Shown: positions 36,192 to 42,336 of the stretch, in pieces
Numbering within the stretch: the stretch's first letter is position 1
Layout: each line of letters starts with the position of its first letter
Assembly (NCBI GenBank): GCA_017431845.1
Contig: JAFRKG010000120.1
Coordinates: forward strand, 1 to 64,000
Source: Methanosphaera sp.
Lineage (GTDB): Archaea > Methanobacteriota > Methanobacteria > Methanobacteriales > Methanobacteriaceae
Reading direction: 5' to 3'
Length of the DNA: 64,000 nt
Notes under the pieces: generated by a model
The model's input: the letters and a program-made list of their open reading frames with translations, nothing else
Told to the model about the DNA's origin: nothing
The model's database searches: none
Translations under genes and position numbers: made by a program

Positions 36192-37529
36192 ATGTCAACA
36201 AAAGATGAAAAAATAGACAGCATAATTAAACAAATAGATGAATTCGACTATAAATTCTTAAGATTACAATTTTCAGATATTCATGGTATCCCAAAAAGTA
36301 TGGCAGTATCATTAAAAAAACCAGATGACATAGAAGATATAATCGAAGAGGGATTATTGTTTGATGGATCATCAGTACCAGGTTTTGTAGGTATAAACGA
36401 TAGTGATTTATTATTAAAACCAGACATCAATACATTCTCCACATTACCATGGAGACCAGAAGAAAAAGGTGCTTGCAGATTTATATGTGACATTTATAAT
36501 ACTGATGGAAGCCCATTTGAAGGAGATCCAAGAGGAGTACTAAAAAAATCCTTAAAAAAAGCAGAAGAAAGAGGATATCAATTTAATATGGGTCCAGAAC
36601 CAGAATTTTTCATAATCGAACAAGATGAACATGGAAACTACATGCCTGCAGACCAAGCAGATTACTTTGATGTTGAACCACTCGACAAAGGAACAGATAT
36701 AAGAAGAGAAATAGTACTGGGATTAGAAAAACTGGATTTCAACATAGAAGTAAGCCATCACGAAGTAGCACCAGGACAACATGAAATTGACTTCAGATTT
36801 GCTGATGCATTAAAAACAGCAGATGCAGTAATAACATTTAAACAAGCTATTAAAGCATTAGTTCATAATTTAGGATACGATGTAACATTTATGCCTAAAC
36901 CATTCTTTGGAGTAAACGGTAGTGGAATGCATTGTAACCAAAGTTTATTTAAAGATGGAAAAAACATTTTCTATGATCCAGATACTGAAAGTCAATTATC
37001 ACAAGAAGCATTATACTTTATAGGTGGACTGTTAAAACATGCTCCAGCATTATCATGTATTCTATCTCCAACCGTAAACTCTTATAAACGTTTAGTACCT
37101 GGATACGAAGCACCATGTTATATTGCATACGGACTAAAAAATAGGTCTACTTTACTAAGAATTCCTGCATCAAGAGGTATTGGAACAAGAATTGAATGTC
37201 GTTCTGCAGATCCATCATGTAACCCTTATTTGGCATTTGCAGTATTGTTAGAAGCAGGATTAGATGGAATGGATAATAAAATTGATCCTGGAGAACCAAC
37301 AGAATTCAATGCTTTCGCATATACTCCTGAAGAGCTAGAAGAAAAAGGTATTAAAACTTTACCAACAAGTTTATGGGAAGCATATCATTCATTAGAAAAA
37401 GATGATGTAGTTAAAAATGCATTAGGGGACTATGTGTATAATCAGTTTTATAACATTAAACGTCAAGAATGGGATGATTATAGAATACAAGTATTTGATT
37501 ATGAACGTGAAAAATACTTAAACATATAA
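36192..37529 (+). CDS. glnA: Glutamine synthetase type I
   Basis: A 445-residue GS that makes glutamine from glutamate, ammonia and ATP. Seen in order: FDGSSVPGF (substrate loop), [10 protein letters not shown] with metal-binding Glu, [13 protein letters not shown] (metal-binding residues), [12 protein letters not shown] (with the ATP/metal His), [13 protein letters not shown] (glutamate/ATP binding) and [15 protein letters not shown]. There is no tyrosine adenylylation loop, consistent with the short GSI-alpha form, so control would be by transcription and effectors. An NrpR-type operator lies upstream. AGGTGAG precedes the ATG. The glutamate synthase genes follow, completing the GS-GOGAT route. 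Confidence 0.96.
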
Positions 37530-37584
37530 TTAATTTTTCTTGAACATTGTTTTTTAAATTGGTATTATACTTGTCACTTATATA

Positions 37585-37629
37585 TTTATATATAACTTAT
37601 GACATATGTTATATCGGAAGTATATTTCC
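37585..37629 (+). promoter_or_regulatory. Second promoter with NrpR-type operator
   Basis: TTTATATATA at 37585-37594 is followed by GGAAGTATATTTCC at 37616-37629, again an exact GGAA-N6-TTCC. TATA-to-operator distance is 31 bases, against 32 at glnA, and the two operators differ at one base only. It lies 520 bases ahead of the first glutamate synthase gene. It either drives that operon through a long leader or drives a separate small RNA. Confidence 0.8.
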
Positions 37630-37857
37630 TATTTCCTATAATAAGAAAAATATTAAAACAAACACAAACTTTAAAAAAAGAATTAAAAGAGGCAAAAAAT
37701 AAAAGCATAATCAAAAAAACGAAATCATAAGACACATAAAAATTAATAAAAAATAAATACATATCATTCAAAAAAAAATAAGCAATATAACATAAAAACT
37801 AATAAAATAAAAACACATTTTATTAAAAATCAAAAAGAACACAAAACTAGAACATCT

Positions 37858-37921
37858 GGGGTGATGTATTGTAATTGACATTATACTAAAATTAATAAAA
37901 TTAAAATCTCCTCATCACCCC
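37858..37921 (+). ncRNA. Hairpin in the leader ahead of the glutamate synthase operon
   Basis: GGGGTGATG (37858-37866) and CATCACCCC (37913-37921) are perfect 9-bp complements with a 46-base AT-rich loop, followed at once by TTTT. This is the most G+C-rich stem in the spacer. It could end a roughly 300-base RNA starting at the upstream NrpR-type promoter, act as an attenuator, or bind a protein. Because the left arm carries GGTGAT, the stem might also mimic or hide a ribosome binding site. No known RNA family was recognised. Confidence 0.4.
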
Positions 37922-38148
37922 TTTTAAAATTCTATACAAAACATCACAAAATTCAAATCATTATTATTTTTCATTTTATGTATCTATTTTTTCACTAAAT
38001 TTCTTAAAATAACAAAAATTTTCAATTTAATAAAAATATGAAAAAAAATGTTCATAATATAACTTTTCTTTTAACAAAAAAGGGTACTTGGAAGTTATAA
38101 ACTATAATTGAAAGTATATTCTATTAAAATAAACAAAGAGGTAATAAC

Positions 38149-39066
38149 ATGTGTGGAATTGCAGGACTAATATATAAAGATAAAAAAACACACAGTGTGG
38201 GAAAATCATTAACTTCAATGCTAGGATCTTTACAGCATAGAGGACCAGACTCAGCAGGATTTGCAATATATGGTGGTTTAAATCTTCCAAAAAATCATTA
38301 TCAACTAAATATAGAAATAAAAAATAAAAACAAACTATTAAATCAAGTTAAAACCACTTTAACACAATCAAGCAAAATTTTTAACGAAGAAATAATAAAA
38401 TCTGACGAAAAATATAACATCTACCGATGCGAAATAAAACTAGAAAACTACTCAATGCTAAAACAATTAATCACCACATTAGACGAAATAGAAGACATAC
38501 AAGTAATAAACGGCTCACAATCATTTGAAATGATAAAAGACATAGGAAAAGTAAAAGACATATCCAAACGATACAACGTATCAAAAAGAAAAGGAACACA
38601 CGGAATAGGACATACAAGATTCGCAACAGAAAGTGGAATAGACAGATACCATGCACACCCATATCAAAGCTATATCACACCAGATATCACCGTAGTACAT
38701 AATGGACAAATAACAAATTACTGGAAAATCAGAGACCCATTAGAAAGAAAAGGACACGTCTTCAAAACATTAAACGACACAGAATGCATCGTACACTACA
38801 TAGCAGAAAAACTATCACAAGGATACAAACTAGAAGAAACATTAGAAGCAGCAGTAAAAGACTTAGACGGTCCATTTTCCATACTAGTAGGAACACCAAA
38901 CGGAATTGGAATAGCAAAAGACAAACTAGGACTAAGACCAGGAGTAATGGCAGAAAATGATGATATATTCGCAATAGCATCCGAAGAAATGTCATTACAA
39001 AATGTAGTGAACACCGAACATGTAGAACAAATTGCACCTGGAGAAACAAGATCATACACAATATAA
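38149..39066 (+). CDS. Glutamate synthase, glutaminase (amidotransferase) subunit
   Basis: A 305-residue class II glutamine amidotransferase. It begins MCGIAGL, so Cys2 becomes the catalytic N-terminal nucleophile. It also has QHRGPDSAGFAIY, GTHGIGHTRFATES, HPYQSY, VVHNGQI and NDTECIVHYI, and DGPFSILVGTPNGIGIAKDKLGLRPG. It releases ammonia from glutamine for the synthase. In archaea the domains of bacterial GltB are separate genes; this is the first of four in order. AGAGGT precedes the ATG. The stop is 8 bases before the next gene. Confidence 0.92.
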   Translation: MCGIAGLIYKDKKTHSVGKSLTSMLGSLQHRGPDSAGFAIYGGLNLPKNHYQLNIEIKNKNKLLNQVKTTLTQSSKIFNEEIIKSDEKYNIYRCEIKLENYSMLKQLITTLDEIEDIQVINGSQSFEMIKDIGKVKDISKRYNVSKRKGTHGIGHTRFATESGIDRYHAHPYQSYITPDITVVHNGQITNYWKIRDPLERKGHVFKTLNDTECIVHYIAEKLSQGYKLEETLEAAVKDLDGPFSILVGTPNGIGIAKDKLGLRPGVMAENDDIFAIASEEMSLQNVVNTEHVEQIAPGETRSYTI

Positions 39067-39074
39067 AAAAAAAT

Positions 39075-39761
39075 ATGGGAAGTTATAATATGAGTGAGTA
39101 TACTATAGATGCAAAAAACATGGAAGAAAAAGATTTAACCCGTTCAATAAAAGAACACGCATTAAATTATGATAAACTAATCATCAAAAATCCTCAATCC
39201 AGACACAATATTGCTGCAGGAGTAACAGAAGAAGTAAAAATAGAAATAGATGGTTCAGCAGGATATTTCATAGGAACAATGATAGATGGCCCAAAAATAC
39301 ATGTGAAAAATAATGCAGGATGGTTCGCAGGAGACAACATGACCAAGGGCGAACTAATAATCGATGGAAGTGCAGGTGACGGAGTAGGACAAGGAATATA
39401 CGGGGGAACAGTAGTAGTAAGAGGCGATGCAGGTTCACGTACAGGAGAAATCATGAAAGGAGGAACAGTCATCATAGGAGGAAACAGTGGTTTCATGACA
39501 GGACTACTAATGATGGGAGGACAACTAATAGTACTCGGAGACGTAACCAATGATGCTGGAGAATCAATCATGAGAGGAACAATATACGTTCTAGGAGAAG
39601 TAAAAAGTCTTGGAAAAAATGCTAAAATGGAACAAACAACATTAGAAGACCAAAAAGAACTAAAAACACTATTAACAAAATACGGATTTGAAATAACAGA
39701 TATAGATTATACAAATTTCAAAAAAATAACAAACAAATCCGAAAAACCATTAACGGAGTGA
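39075..39761 (+). CDS. Glutamate synthase, GXGXG (alpha C-terminal) subunit
   Basis: A 228-residue protein made of the right-handed beta-helix found at the C-terminus of bacterial GltB. Repeats such as DGSAGYFIG, NNAGWFAGD, DGSAGDGVGQGIYGGTV, GDAGSRTGEIMKGGTV and GGNSGFMTGLLMMGGQ form the GXGXG ladder, which bridges the glutaminase and synthase sites. Residues 1-60 hold the lead-in IDAKNMEEKDL. The next gene starts 7 bases after its stop, so it is the second gene of the operon. It starts at ATG 39075 (MGSYNMSEY); a start at the second ATG (39090), which begins MSEYTIDA, is equally possible. Confidence 0.9.
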   Translation: MGSYNMSEYTIDAKNMEEKDLTRSIKEHALNYDKLIIKNPQSRHNIAAGVTEEVKIEIDGSAGYFIGTMIDGPKIHVKNNAGWFAGDNMTKGELIIDGSAGDGVGQGIYGGTVVVRGDAGSRTGEIMKGGTVIIGGNSGFMTGLLMMGGQLIVLGDVTNDAGESIMRGTIYVLGEVKSLGKNAKMEQTTLEDQKELKTLLTKYGFEITDIDYTNFKKITNKSEKPLTE

Positions 39762-39768
39762 TCAAAAC

Positions 39769-40845
39769 ATGTCAGAAGACAAAATAGCAATAGTAGGAAC
39801 TCCTTGTGAAATAATGGCAGCATCAAAAATACAACACTACACTCAAACACCAATCGACTTCAAAATAGGACTATTCTGCATGGAAAACTTTTCATACTCC
39901 TACTTTGTAAAACTACTAAAAACAATGGATTTAACAATGGAAGAAATAGAAAAATTCAGAATAGAAAAAGGATACGCATTCCTAAACCTAAAAAACGGAA
40001 AACAAGTAAAAATATCATTATCAAAAGCAAAAACAGTAGTAAGAAAAAACTGCAATATCTGTGCAGAATTAACATCAGAAACCTCAGACATATCAGTAGG
40101 ATCAATAGGCTCAGAAAACGGATGGTCAACAATAATAATAAGAACAGAAAAAGGAGAAAAAATAATAGAAGATGCAATCAAACAAAAATACCTAAAAGCC
40201 AAAGAATTAACACCATCCCAACTAAAATTATTAGAACGAATATCATCAAATAAAACAAAAACAAATTATGAAAACATAGAATCCAGAGAATCAAGAGCAA
40301 GACCAGTACTATACTTAAGAGACAAAACAGACGAAAGCATCATGGAAGAAATACTAGAATCAAACTTTGATGACCTAAGAGCAAACGTAATAAACGTAGG
40401 AGCATGCGTACTATGCGGAGCATGTGAATACGTATGTCCGGATGATCTAATACTAATAAAGAACACAAAACCAAGAAAAAAACGAAAAAAATGTCCCGAA
40501 GACTGTCACATGTGTTTCACAGTCTGTCCAAGAACATTCATACCAACAGACCTAAGAAACAATTTAACAAAAACAATCGGAGACTACAAAAAAATCTTAA
40601 CAGTAAAATCATTAAAACATAATGAAGGTCAAGACGGTGTGGTAGTAACTACAATACTTGACTACTTATTATCTAATAATATAGTAACACAAACATTAGT
40701 AGTAGATAAAAAAGAAAACTTAGCCTGGAAACCTTATGCAAAACTCACAAAAGACGTGGATGAAATAGTTAAAGCTTCAGGAACAAAATATTCTGTCTGC
40801 CCAGTATTTAAACCACTAAAACAATTAAAAAGGGATGTGAATTAA
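39769..40845 (+). CDS. F420 hydrogenase/dehydrogenase beta-type (FrhB-like) subunit of glutamate synthase
   Basis: A 358-residue flavoprotein of the FrhB/FpoF family. The start IAIVGTPCEIMAASKIQ and the KNCNICAELTSETSDISVGSIGS stretch are family hallmarks. Two ferredoxin-type motifs follow, CVLCGACEYVCP (about residues 214-225) and CPEDCHMCFTVCP, for Fe-S clusters. FrhB-type subunits bind FAD and exchange hydride with coenzyme F420. Its place between the GXGXG and FMN subunits implies that this glutamate synthase draws its electrons from F420H2 instead of NADPH or ferredoxin; this is inference from context. The stop touches the next ATG. Confidence 0.88.
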   Translation: MSEDKIAIVGTPCEIMAASKIQHYTQTPIDFKIGLFCMENFSYSYFVKLLKTMDLTMEEIEKFRIEKGYAFLNLKNGKQVKISLSKAKTVVRKNCNICAELTSETSDISVGSIGSENGWSTIIIRTEKGEKIIEDAIKQKYLKAKELTPSQLKLLERISSNKTKTNYENIESRESRARPVLYLRDKTDESIMEEILESNFDDLRANVINVGACVLCGACEYVCPDDLILIKNTKPRKKRKKCPEDCHMCFTVCPRTFIPTDLRNNLTKTIGDYKKILTVKSLKHNEGQDGVVVTTILDYLLSNNIVTQTLVVDKKENLAWKPYAKLTKDVDEIVKASGTKYSVCPVFKPLKQLKRDVN

Positions 40846-42336
40846 ATGCCATTTGACGTCAATAGAAGATCAGAAATATGTAAAAGAAACAATAATCGAC
40901 CAGGATGTTGTTGGTATTTATGTGACAATCCTAAAGAATCATTATGTAAACATTGTTACAGCTGTTATAGCAACTGTCCACATGGAGTATATGAAATAAT
41001 CAACGATGAACCACAACCAGTACACCAAGAAAATTGTGTAGGATGTAAAATCTGTGAAGAAATGTGTCCAAACAATGCAATATATGTAACACCACTACCA
41101 GATGAAAACAGAGGAATATGGTCAAACTATACAATGCTAGAAATAAAACGAAAATCCAGAGAAGGAACATACAAAGTAAGAGGATGTGGAGCAACACGTC
41201 ATGTACCATCATTTGACGACTTAACAATACTACCAGCACAAGTATCAAGACCACCAATAGACAAATACAGGGAACCATGTAACTCAGAAGTAGTATTGGG
41301 TGATAGATTTGCAGAAAATCCAATAAAAATATCAACACCTATAATGATTGGAGCAATGTCATTTGGAGCAATTAGTAAAGAAGCAAAAATGGCATTAGCA
41401 AGAGGATCAAAACTTGCAGGAACCATTACAAATACTGGTGAAGGAGGAATGCTCCCAGAAGAAAGGCATTATGCTGACAAATTAATTGCTCAATATGCGT
41501 CAGGAAGATTTGGAGTATCAGCAAATTACCTGAATAATGCAGATGCAATTGAAATCAAAATAGGACAAGGTTCAAAAGCAGGAATGGGTGGACACTTACT
41601 AGCAGAAAAAGTAACAGCAGAAGTAGCAAAAATTAGGAATATACCAGAGGGGACCGATGCTTTAAGTCCTGCAAGACATATGGATATAGTAGGTCCAGAA
41701 GATTTAAGATTAAAAATCAATCAATTACGTGATATAACAGATTGGAAAATACCTATTATGGTAAAATTCACTTCGGGTAGAGTAGAACAAGATGTAAAAA
41801 TAGCTGCAAAAGCTGGAGCAGACATAATTGTTGTAGATGGTATGCAAGGTGGAACTGGTGCAGGACCAGAAGTTGTAACGGAACATTCAGGAATTCCTAC
41901 AATACAAGCAATACTTGAAGCAGATCAAACTCTTAGGGAAATTAACTTAAGAGAAGAAGTTAGTCTCGTAGCAGCAGGTGGAATACGTTCAGGAGCAGAT
42001 GTAGCAAAAGCAATAGCATTAGGTGCAGATGCAGCATATATTGGAACAGCAGCATTAATATCATTAGGATGTAAAGTCTGTCAGGGATGCAGTAAAGGAA
42101 CATGTCCAAAAGGAATTGCAACACAAAATAGATTGTTCAGAAGACGTCTGGATCCAGTAAGAGGTGGAGAATATGTTGCAAATTATATTAAAGTAATGAC
42201 TGAAGAAGCAAAAATGTTAACCCAACAAGCAGGAAATACTGATATTCAAAAACTAGAAAAAGAAGATTTAGTTGCATTAACTATGGAAGCATCTCACATT
42301 ACAGGAGTACCACTGGTAAGAAAAGGATTCAGATAA
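40846..42336 (+). CDS. Glutamate synthase, FMN-binding catalytic subunit with ferredoxin domain
   Basis: A 496-residue protein. The N-terminus has Cys-rich motifs, CKHCYSCYSNCP and CVGCKICEEMCP (two [4Fe-4S] clusters). Residues 100-490 are the FMN barrel of glutamate synthase: MIGAMSFGAISKEAKMALARG, NTGEGGM, ISPARHMD-like ALSPARHMDI, VKFTSGRVEQDV, IIVVDGMQGGTGAGP, LVAAGGIRSGADVAKAIALGADA and the cluster segment CKVCQGCSKGTCPKGIATQ. It makes glutamate from 2-oxoglutarate and ammonia. It is the last gene of the four-gene unit and is followed by a T-rich terminator-like run (42341-42365). Confidence 0.93.
   Translation: MPFDVNRRSEICKRNNNRPGCCWYLCDNPKESLCKHCYSCYSNCPHGVYEIINDEPQPVHQENCVGCKICEEMCPNNAIYVTPLPDENRGIWSNYTMLEIKRKSREGTYKVRGCGATRHVPSFDDLTILPAQVSRPPIDKYREPCNSEVVLGDRFAENPIKISTPIMIGAMSFGAISKEAKMALARGSKLAGTITNTGEGGMLPEERHYADKLIAQYASGRFGVSANYLNNADAIEIKIGQGSKAGMGGHLLAEKVTAEVAKIRNIPEGTDALSPARHMDIVGPEDLRLKINQLRDITDWKIPIMVKFTSGRVEQDVKIAAKAGADIIVVDGMQGGTGAGPEVVTEHSGIPTIQAILEADQTLREINLREEVSLVAAGGIRSGADVAKAIALGADAAYIGTAALISLGCKVCQGCSKGTCPKGIATQNRLFRRRLDPVRGGEYVANYIKVMTEEAKMLTQQAGNTDIQKLEKEDLVALTMEASHITGVPLVRKGFR

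Follow-up and report, generated by a model that had tools for sequence, protein, structure and literature searches.

A probable relic amtB-glnK operon between glnA and the glutamate synthase operon of Methanosphaera

The spacer between glnA and the glutamate synthase (glt) operon in Methanosphaera genome G000 most probably contains an emptied amtB-glnK operon, of which the promoter, the leader and the end hairpin appear to be left and the coding genes to be lost. The window analysed was a 64,000-nucleotide stretch of contig 25, and the putative relic lies at 37585-37992 within a glnA-gltB1 spacer of 619 bases (Table 1). Comparison with relatives established what both ends of this unit are, in which order and on which strand they lie, and that the middle is missing. 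Because its parts are homologous to both ends of amtB-glnK, we regard the element as a decayed operon and not as a dedicated sRNA gene. With the Methanosphaera amtB-glnK operon the unit shares the triple half-site promoter, the A-rich leader, the final glnK codons, the stop-codon hairpin, and the order and strand of these parts; it differs in lacking ~1.6 kb of coding sequence and in being placed between glnA and glt.

Table 1. Positions of features in and around the glnA-gltB1 spacer of the window.
Feature	Position	Strand
glnA, glutamine synthetase, glt-linked copy	36192..37529	+
T runs T5 and T6 just past the glnA stop, likely glnA terminator	37534..37555	+
TATA box TTTATATA of the orphan promoter	37585..37592	+
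NrpR operator GGAAGTATATTTCC (37616-37629) and third half-site TTCC (37633-37636), the amtB-promoter signature	37616..37636	+
Probable remains of the A-rich leader of amtB, with AAAAGCATAATC where amtB leaders have GGAAGCATAACC	37637..37741	+
A-rich stretch of no recognisable origin, without residual amtB or glnK coding similarity	37742..37842	+
Probable relic of the glnK 3' end, ...GGT GAT GTA TTG TAA, G-D-V-L-stop (glnK: G-D-D-A-L-stop)	37843..37874	+
Hairpin GGGGTGATG/CATCACCCC, homologous to the glnK-stop hairpin of three relatives and the post-glnA hairpin of three others	37858..37921	+
T runs T5, T4 and T6, where an RNA started at the orphan promoter likely ends	37967..37992	+
Own promoter of the glt operon: TATA-like TTATAAACTA and decayed NrpR operator GAAAGTATATTC	38095..38121	+
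Glutamate synthase operon, four genes, gltB1 start at 38149	38149..42336	+

NrpR operators were recognised as GGAA-N6-TTCC near a TATA box, the consensus being taken from PMC2723118. The spacer carries such an operator behind a TATA box, with a gap of 23 nt between them (~25 nt in amtB promoters), which bears out the original prediction of an NrpR-type promoter 520 bp ahead of the glt operon, a distance exceeding that of a normal leader. A single 572-codon frame of G000 (G000:C118) holds two NRD domains and is the nrpR gene; the second glnA copy of this genome lies next to it. The triple half-site pattern GGAAN6TTCCNANTTCC gave 26 matches in 20 Methanosphaera genomes. They were amtB promoters, reversed glnA promoters (G005, G008, G009, G017 and G019) or the orphan site, which occurred in G000 and G010 only, two strains of one species. 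Every genome in which amtB was found had a match at amtB, and the control had no matches. The amtB promoters of the genus typically consist of TTTATATA, ~25 bases and CGGAAGTGTATTTCCTACTTCCG, followed by an A-rich leader in which several species carry a GGAAGCATAACC-like motif; the window shows the same order with AAAAGCATAATC. A profile of amtB upstream regions, built without the window species, had its best match in the window at 37612-37653 (+ strand, E 3.8e-7), a better match than that at the real glnA promoter, and the profiles of glnA and glt promoters gave lower + strand scores at these positions than the amtB profile. The orphan region also aligned with nine amtB leaders from the TATA box to beyond the operator, and each of these alignments beat all 200 shuffles. 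Collectively, these results point to a promoter and leader of the amtB type at the orphan site. As a separate observation, Methanosphaera amtB messages have A-rich leaders of ~100-200 nt (L271-L290), and the GGAAGCATAACC-like motif recurs in many of them between operator and ribosome-binding site, where it could be a 5' leader element.

The other end of the unit is marked by a hairpin in which GGGGTGATG (37858-37866) pairs perfectly with CATCACCCC (37913-37921) over 9 bp, and its fold had z = -3.1 to -3.5 relative to dinucleotide shuffles. The stem is as originally predicted; the T run reported beside it amounts to TTTT only, and U-tracts lie at 37967-37971 and 37987-37992, some 46-71 bases beyond the stem. 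A BLAST search returned a near-exact match in G010, from the same species, and a short match just 3' of glnA in G008. When 139 genomes of the family were searched with the pattern GGTGAT-N30-60-CTCCTC-N0-2-ATCACC, five had a match, always after the glt-linked glnA, and the reversed pattern used as a control had none in the same 139 genomes. A mobile element was rejected as the source of the hairpin, which is single-copy per genome. In G008, G009 and G019, the hairpin shares the strand of glnA, starts a few tens of bases past the glnA stop codon and has T runs of 7-9 behind it; glnA is convergent to glt in these three genomes. This arrangement would fit a hairpin that is a reused 3' end of the glnA message, acting as a terminator or protecting structure and possibly as a 3'UTR sRNA like GlnZ, with the orphan promoter being incidental. 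GlnZ is released from the enterobacterial glnA 3'UTR (PMC9731577), and the present case shares with it a nitrogen-controlled RNA structure on the 3' side of glnA, but the structure here descends from glnK and has its own promoter in the window. We consider such a glnA 3' end an unlikely explanation for the window, where the hairpin starts 328 nt past the stop codon of glnA, behind two T runs and a promoter, and so is unlikely to be present in most glnA messages.

The homology of the hairpin to the 3' end of glnK supports the relic operon. A covariance model built from five hairpin copies had one further strong match, in G015 (E 5e-6), and weak ones in G014 and G007 (E 0.17 and 0.21), all three at the glnK 3' end of an amtB-glnK operon. 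The 5' arm of the hairpin is coding in these three relatives and reads AGG GGT GAT GAC GCA TTG TAA (R-G-D-D-A-L-stop) in G014 and G007, and the window keeps GGT GAT GTA TTG TAA at this place. A profile of three glnK 3' ends had its sole significant match in the window at 37843-37922 (+ strand, E 1e-4), and pairwise alignment of the glnK 3' end with the window was clear for G015 but no better than with shuffled sequences for G014 and G007. This suggests that a glnK 3' end lies downstream of the orphan promoter on the same strand. The relocated glnK copies of G000, G010, G008 and G019 are without the hairpin. The stem is conserved in relatives, either after glnA or at the 3' end of glnK, and it does not lead glt there. 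A start-stop micro-ORF, in which ATG or TTG and an immediate stop follow GGTGAT in four species, was considered as a ribosome decoy and is explained by the Leu-stop of glnK. In G016, G003 and G011, too, the glnK stop is overlapped by a hairpin, with altered arms, and tests of the helix in single genomes were mostly weak (p 0.003-0.17). The arms of glnK-stop hairpins differ by species, among them GGGGTGAT/ATCACCCC, GGGGAG/CTCCCC and GGGGG/CCCCC (L244-L246, L249, L253, L258), and C-rich repeats such as CTTAACCTCCC occur 3' of the glnK hairpin (L244, L245).

Gene order in relatives places the relic at an ancestral amtB-glnK position next to glt. Five genomes (G016, G014, G007, G003 and G002) have amtB-glnK convergent with glt, and the place of amtB-glnK beside glt is occupied in G008, G009 and G019 by glnA and a hairpin of the glnK type. 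Intact amtB-glnK was found elsewhere in the genomes of G000, G010, G008 and G019. Neither amtB nor glnK was found in G009, a genome rated 95% complete, which may use other ammonium uptake or may be missing a contig. The full unit from promoter to hairpin was present in G000 and G010 only; its occurrence in G010, a two-contig assembly, argues against an assembly error, and the two spacers differ by 1.3% substitutions, too few to separate decay from constraint. In the simplest history, the ancestor would have had NrpR-controlled genes for an ammonium transporter and PII where the glt-linked glnA now sits, a glnA copy would have entered beside amtB-glnK, and the operon would have persisted elsewhere. 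Coding DNA would then have been lost from the old site, leaving the promoter, the A-rich leader, the last glnK codons and the stop-codon hairpin. Three species (G008, G009 and G019) would have kept the hairpin alone at the old site, and in the window species glt would also have ended up behind the relic and codirectional with it. The stretch between operator and stem is A-rich (63% A, 20% T) and without long T runs. No residual coding sequence of amtB, or of glnK apart from its final codons, was found in it, and 37730-37845 did not score above shuffles against amtB-glnK. With no coding remnant inside, we infer the deletion from the two ends only; residual coding sequence is an expected trace and no requirement, since a clean deletion leaves none.

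Transcription of the relic under nitrogen limitation is likely because NrpR is encoded and both the operator and the TATA box are intact. On nitrogen limitation, NrpR would release the promoter, transcription would start near 37615, and the RNA would pass the hairpin and stop at the U-tracts of 37967-37992. Archaeal termination is described in PMC8716108 as dictated by U-tracts together with aCPSF1. A nitrogen-controlled non-coding RNA of ~350 nt ending at 37967-37992 is therefore plausible as a prediction, and the RNA of roughly 300 bases originally proposed is upheld as a plausible non-coding transcript of 300-380 nt, with its end moved from the T run at the stem to the U-tracts. A small protein was rejected, as no ORF on the + strand of 37611-38000 is longer than 6 codons. 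None of the RNA families described in Rfam reached its gathering score in the window, and matches in the spacer were at chance level only.

Such an RNA could be functional, with the gutted operon's shell of promoter, leader and terminator now serving as an NrpR-controlled regulatory RNA that could bind ribosome-binding sites through CUCCUC, which is unpaired next to the 3' arm. The layout is complete from promoter to terminator and has no ORF, UCUCCUC and AUCACC are invariant in the four species with the hairpin after glnA, and there is a precedent in sRNA154, which masks the glnA2 ribosome-binding site via loop 2 (PMC5867862). Like sRNA154 of Methanosarcina mazei, the unit would be nitrogen-controlled and non-coding and it carries an anti-RBS-like CUCCUC, but its parts derive from amtB-glnK. 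We judge this function very unlikely. Descent from amtB-glnK explains every recognisable part, and the body of the unit is restricted to the window species: within the genus it was confined to G000 and G010, and ~39 Methanobrevibacter-type glnA-glt spacers had neither the exact operator nor the stem. Covariation, proposed as a check, was not seen in the glnA-linked set of hairpins because the six core stem pairs are the same throughout. What survives of the sRNA154 analogue first suggested is a plausible non-coding transcript; the dedicated sRNA gene does not.

The decayed operon reading leaves the expression of glt, which would come mainly from its own promoter at ~38095. A nearer promoter for glt had been anticipated at a site near 38055; there is a better TATA at ~38095-38104, which can be aligned to glt promoters in relatives, with a decayed operator behind it at 38110-38121. 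An intact operator lies ~40 nt before the glt start in G008, G009, G014, G017 and G019, but in G000 it has decayed to GAAAGTATATTC. Because glt has kept a TATA box and lost its operator, capture of the old promoter is a serious rival, and the main one for the present use of the relic: the old amtB promoter would drive glt through a leader of ~530 nt, replacing the decayed glt operator, and the hairpin and U-tracts would act as a partial stop. The orphan promoter does face glt, and no T run of at least 5 was found at 37556-37966, over the ~410 nt that follow the glnA T runs. Against this, a TATA-like site is kept just upstream of glt, and transcription from the orphan promoter would have to cross the hairpin and the T5 and T6 runs behind it to reach glt. 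We treat capture as a tentative possibility. Outside the genus, four genomes labelled Methanobrevibacter (L089-L093 except L092) have two NrpR operators, ~45 and 97 bases before gltB1, and most others have none.

Together, these results suggest that the orphan NrpR site and the conserved hairpin are explained by descent from an amtB-glnK operon, where a plain regulon scan or an sRNA screen would misread them as a new sRNA gene. If the relic did act as a regulatory RNA, it would show a small RNA arising from an operon that has lost its genes. The genomes offer a series of states, from intact amtB-glnK through its replacement by glnA with the hairpin to the emptied shell, and this series allows a test between two fates of an abandoned promoter and terminator: turning into a regulatory RNA, or being taken over by the operon that follows.
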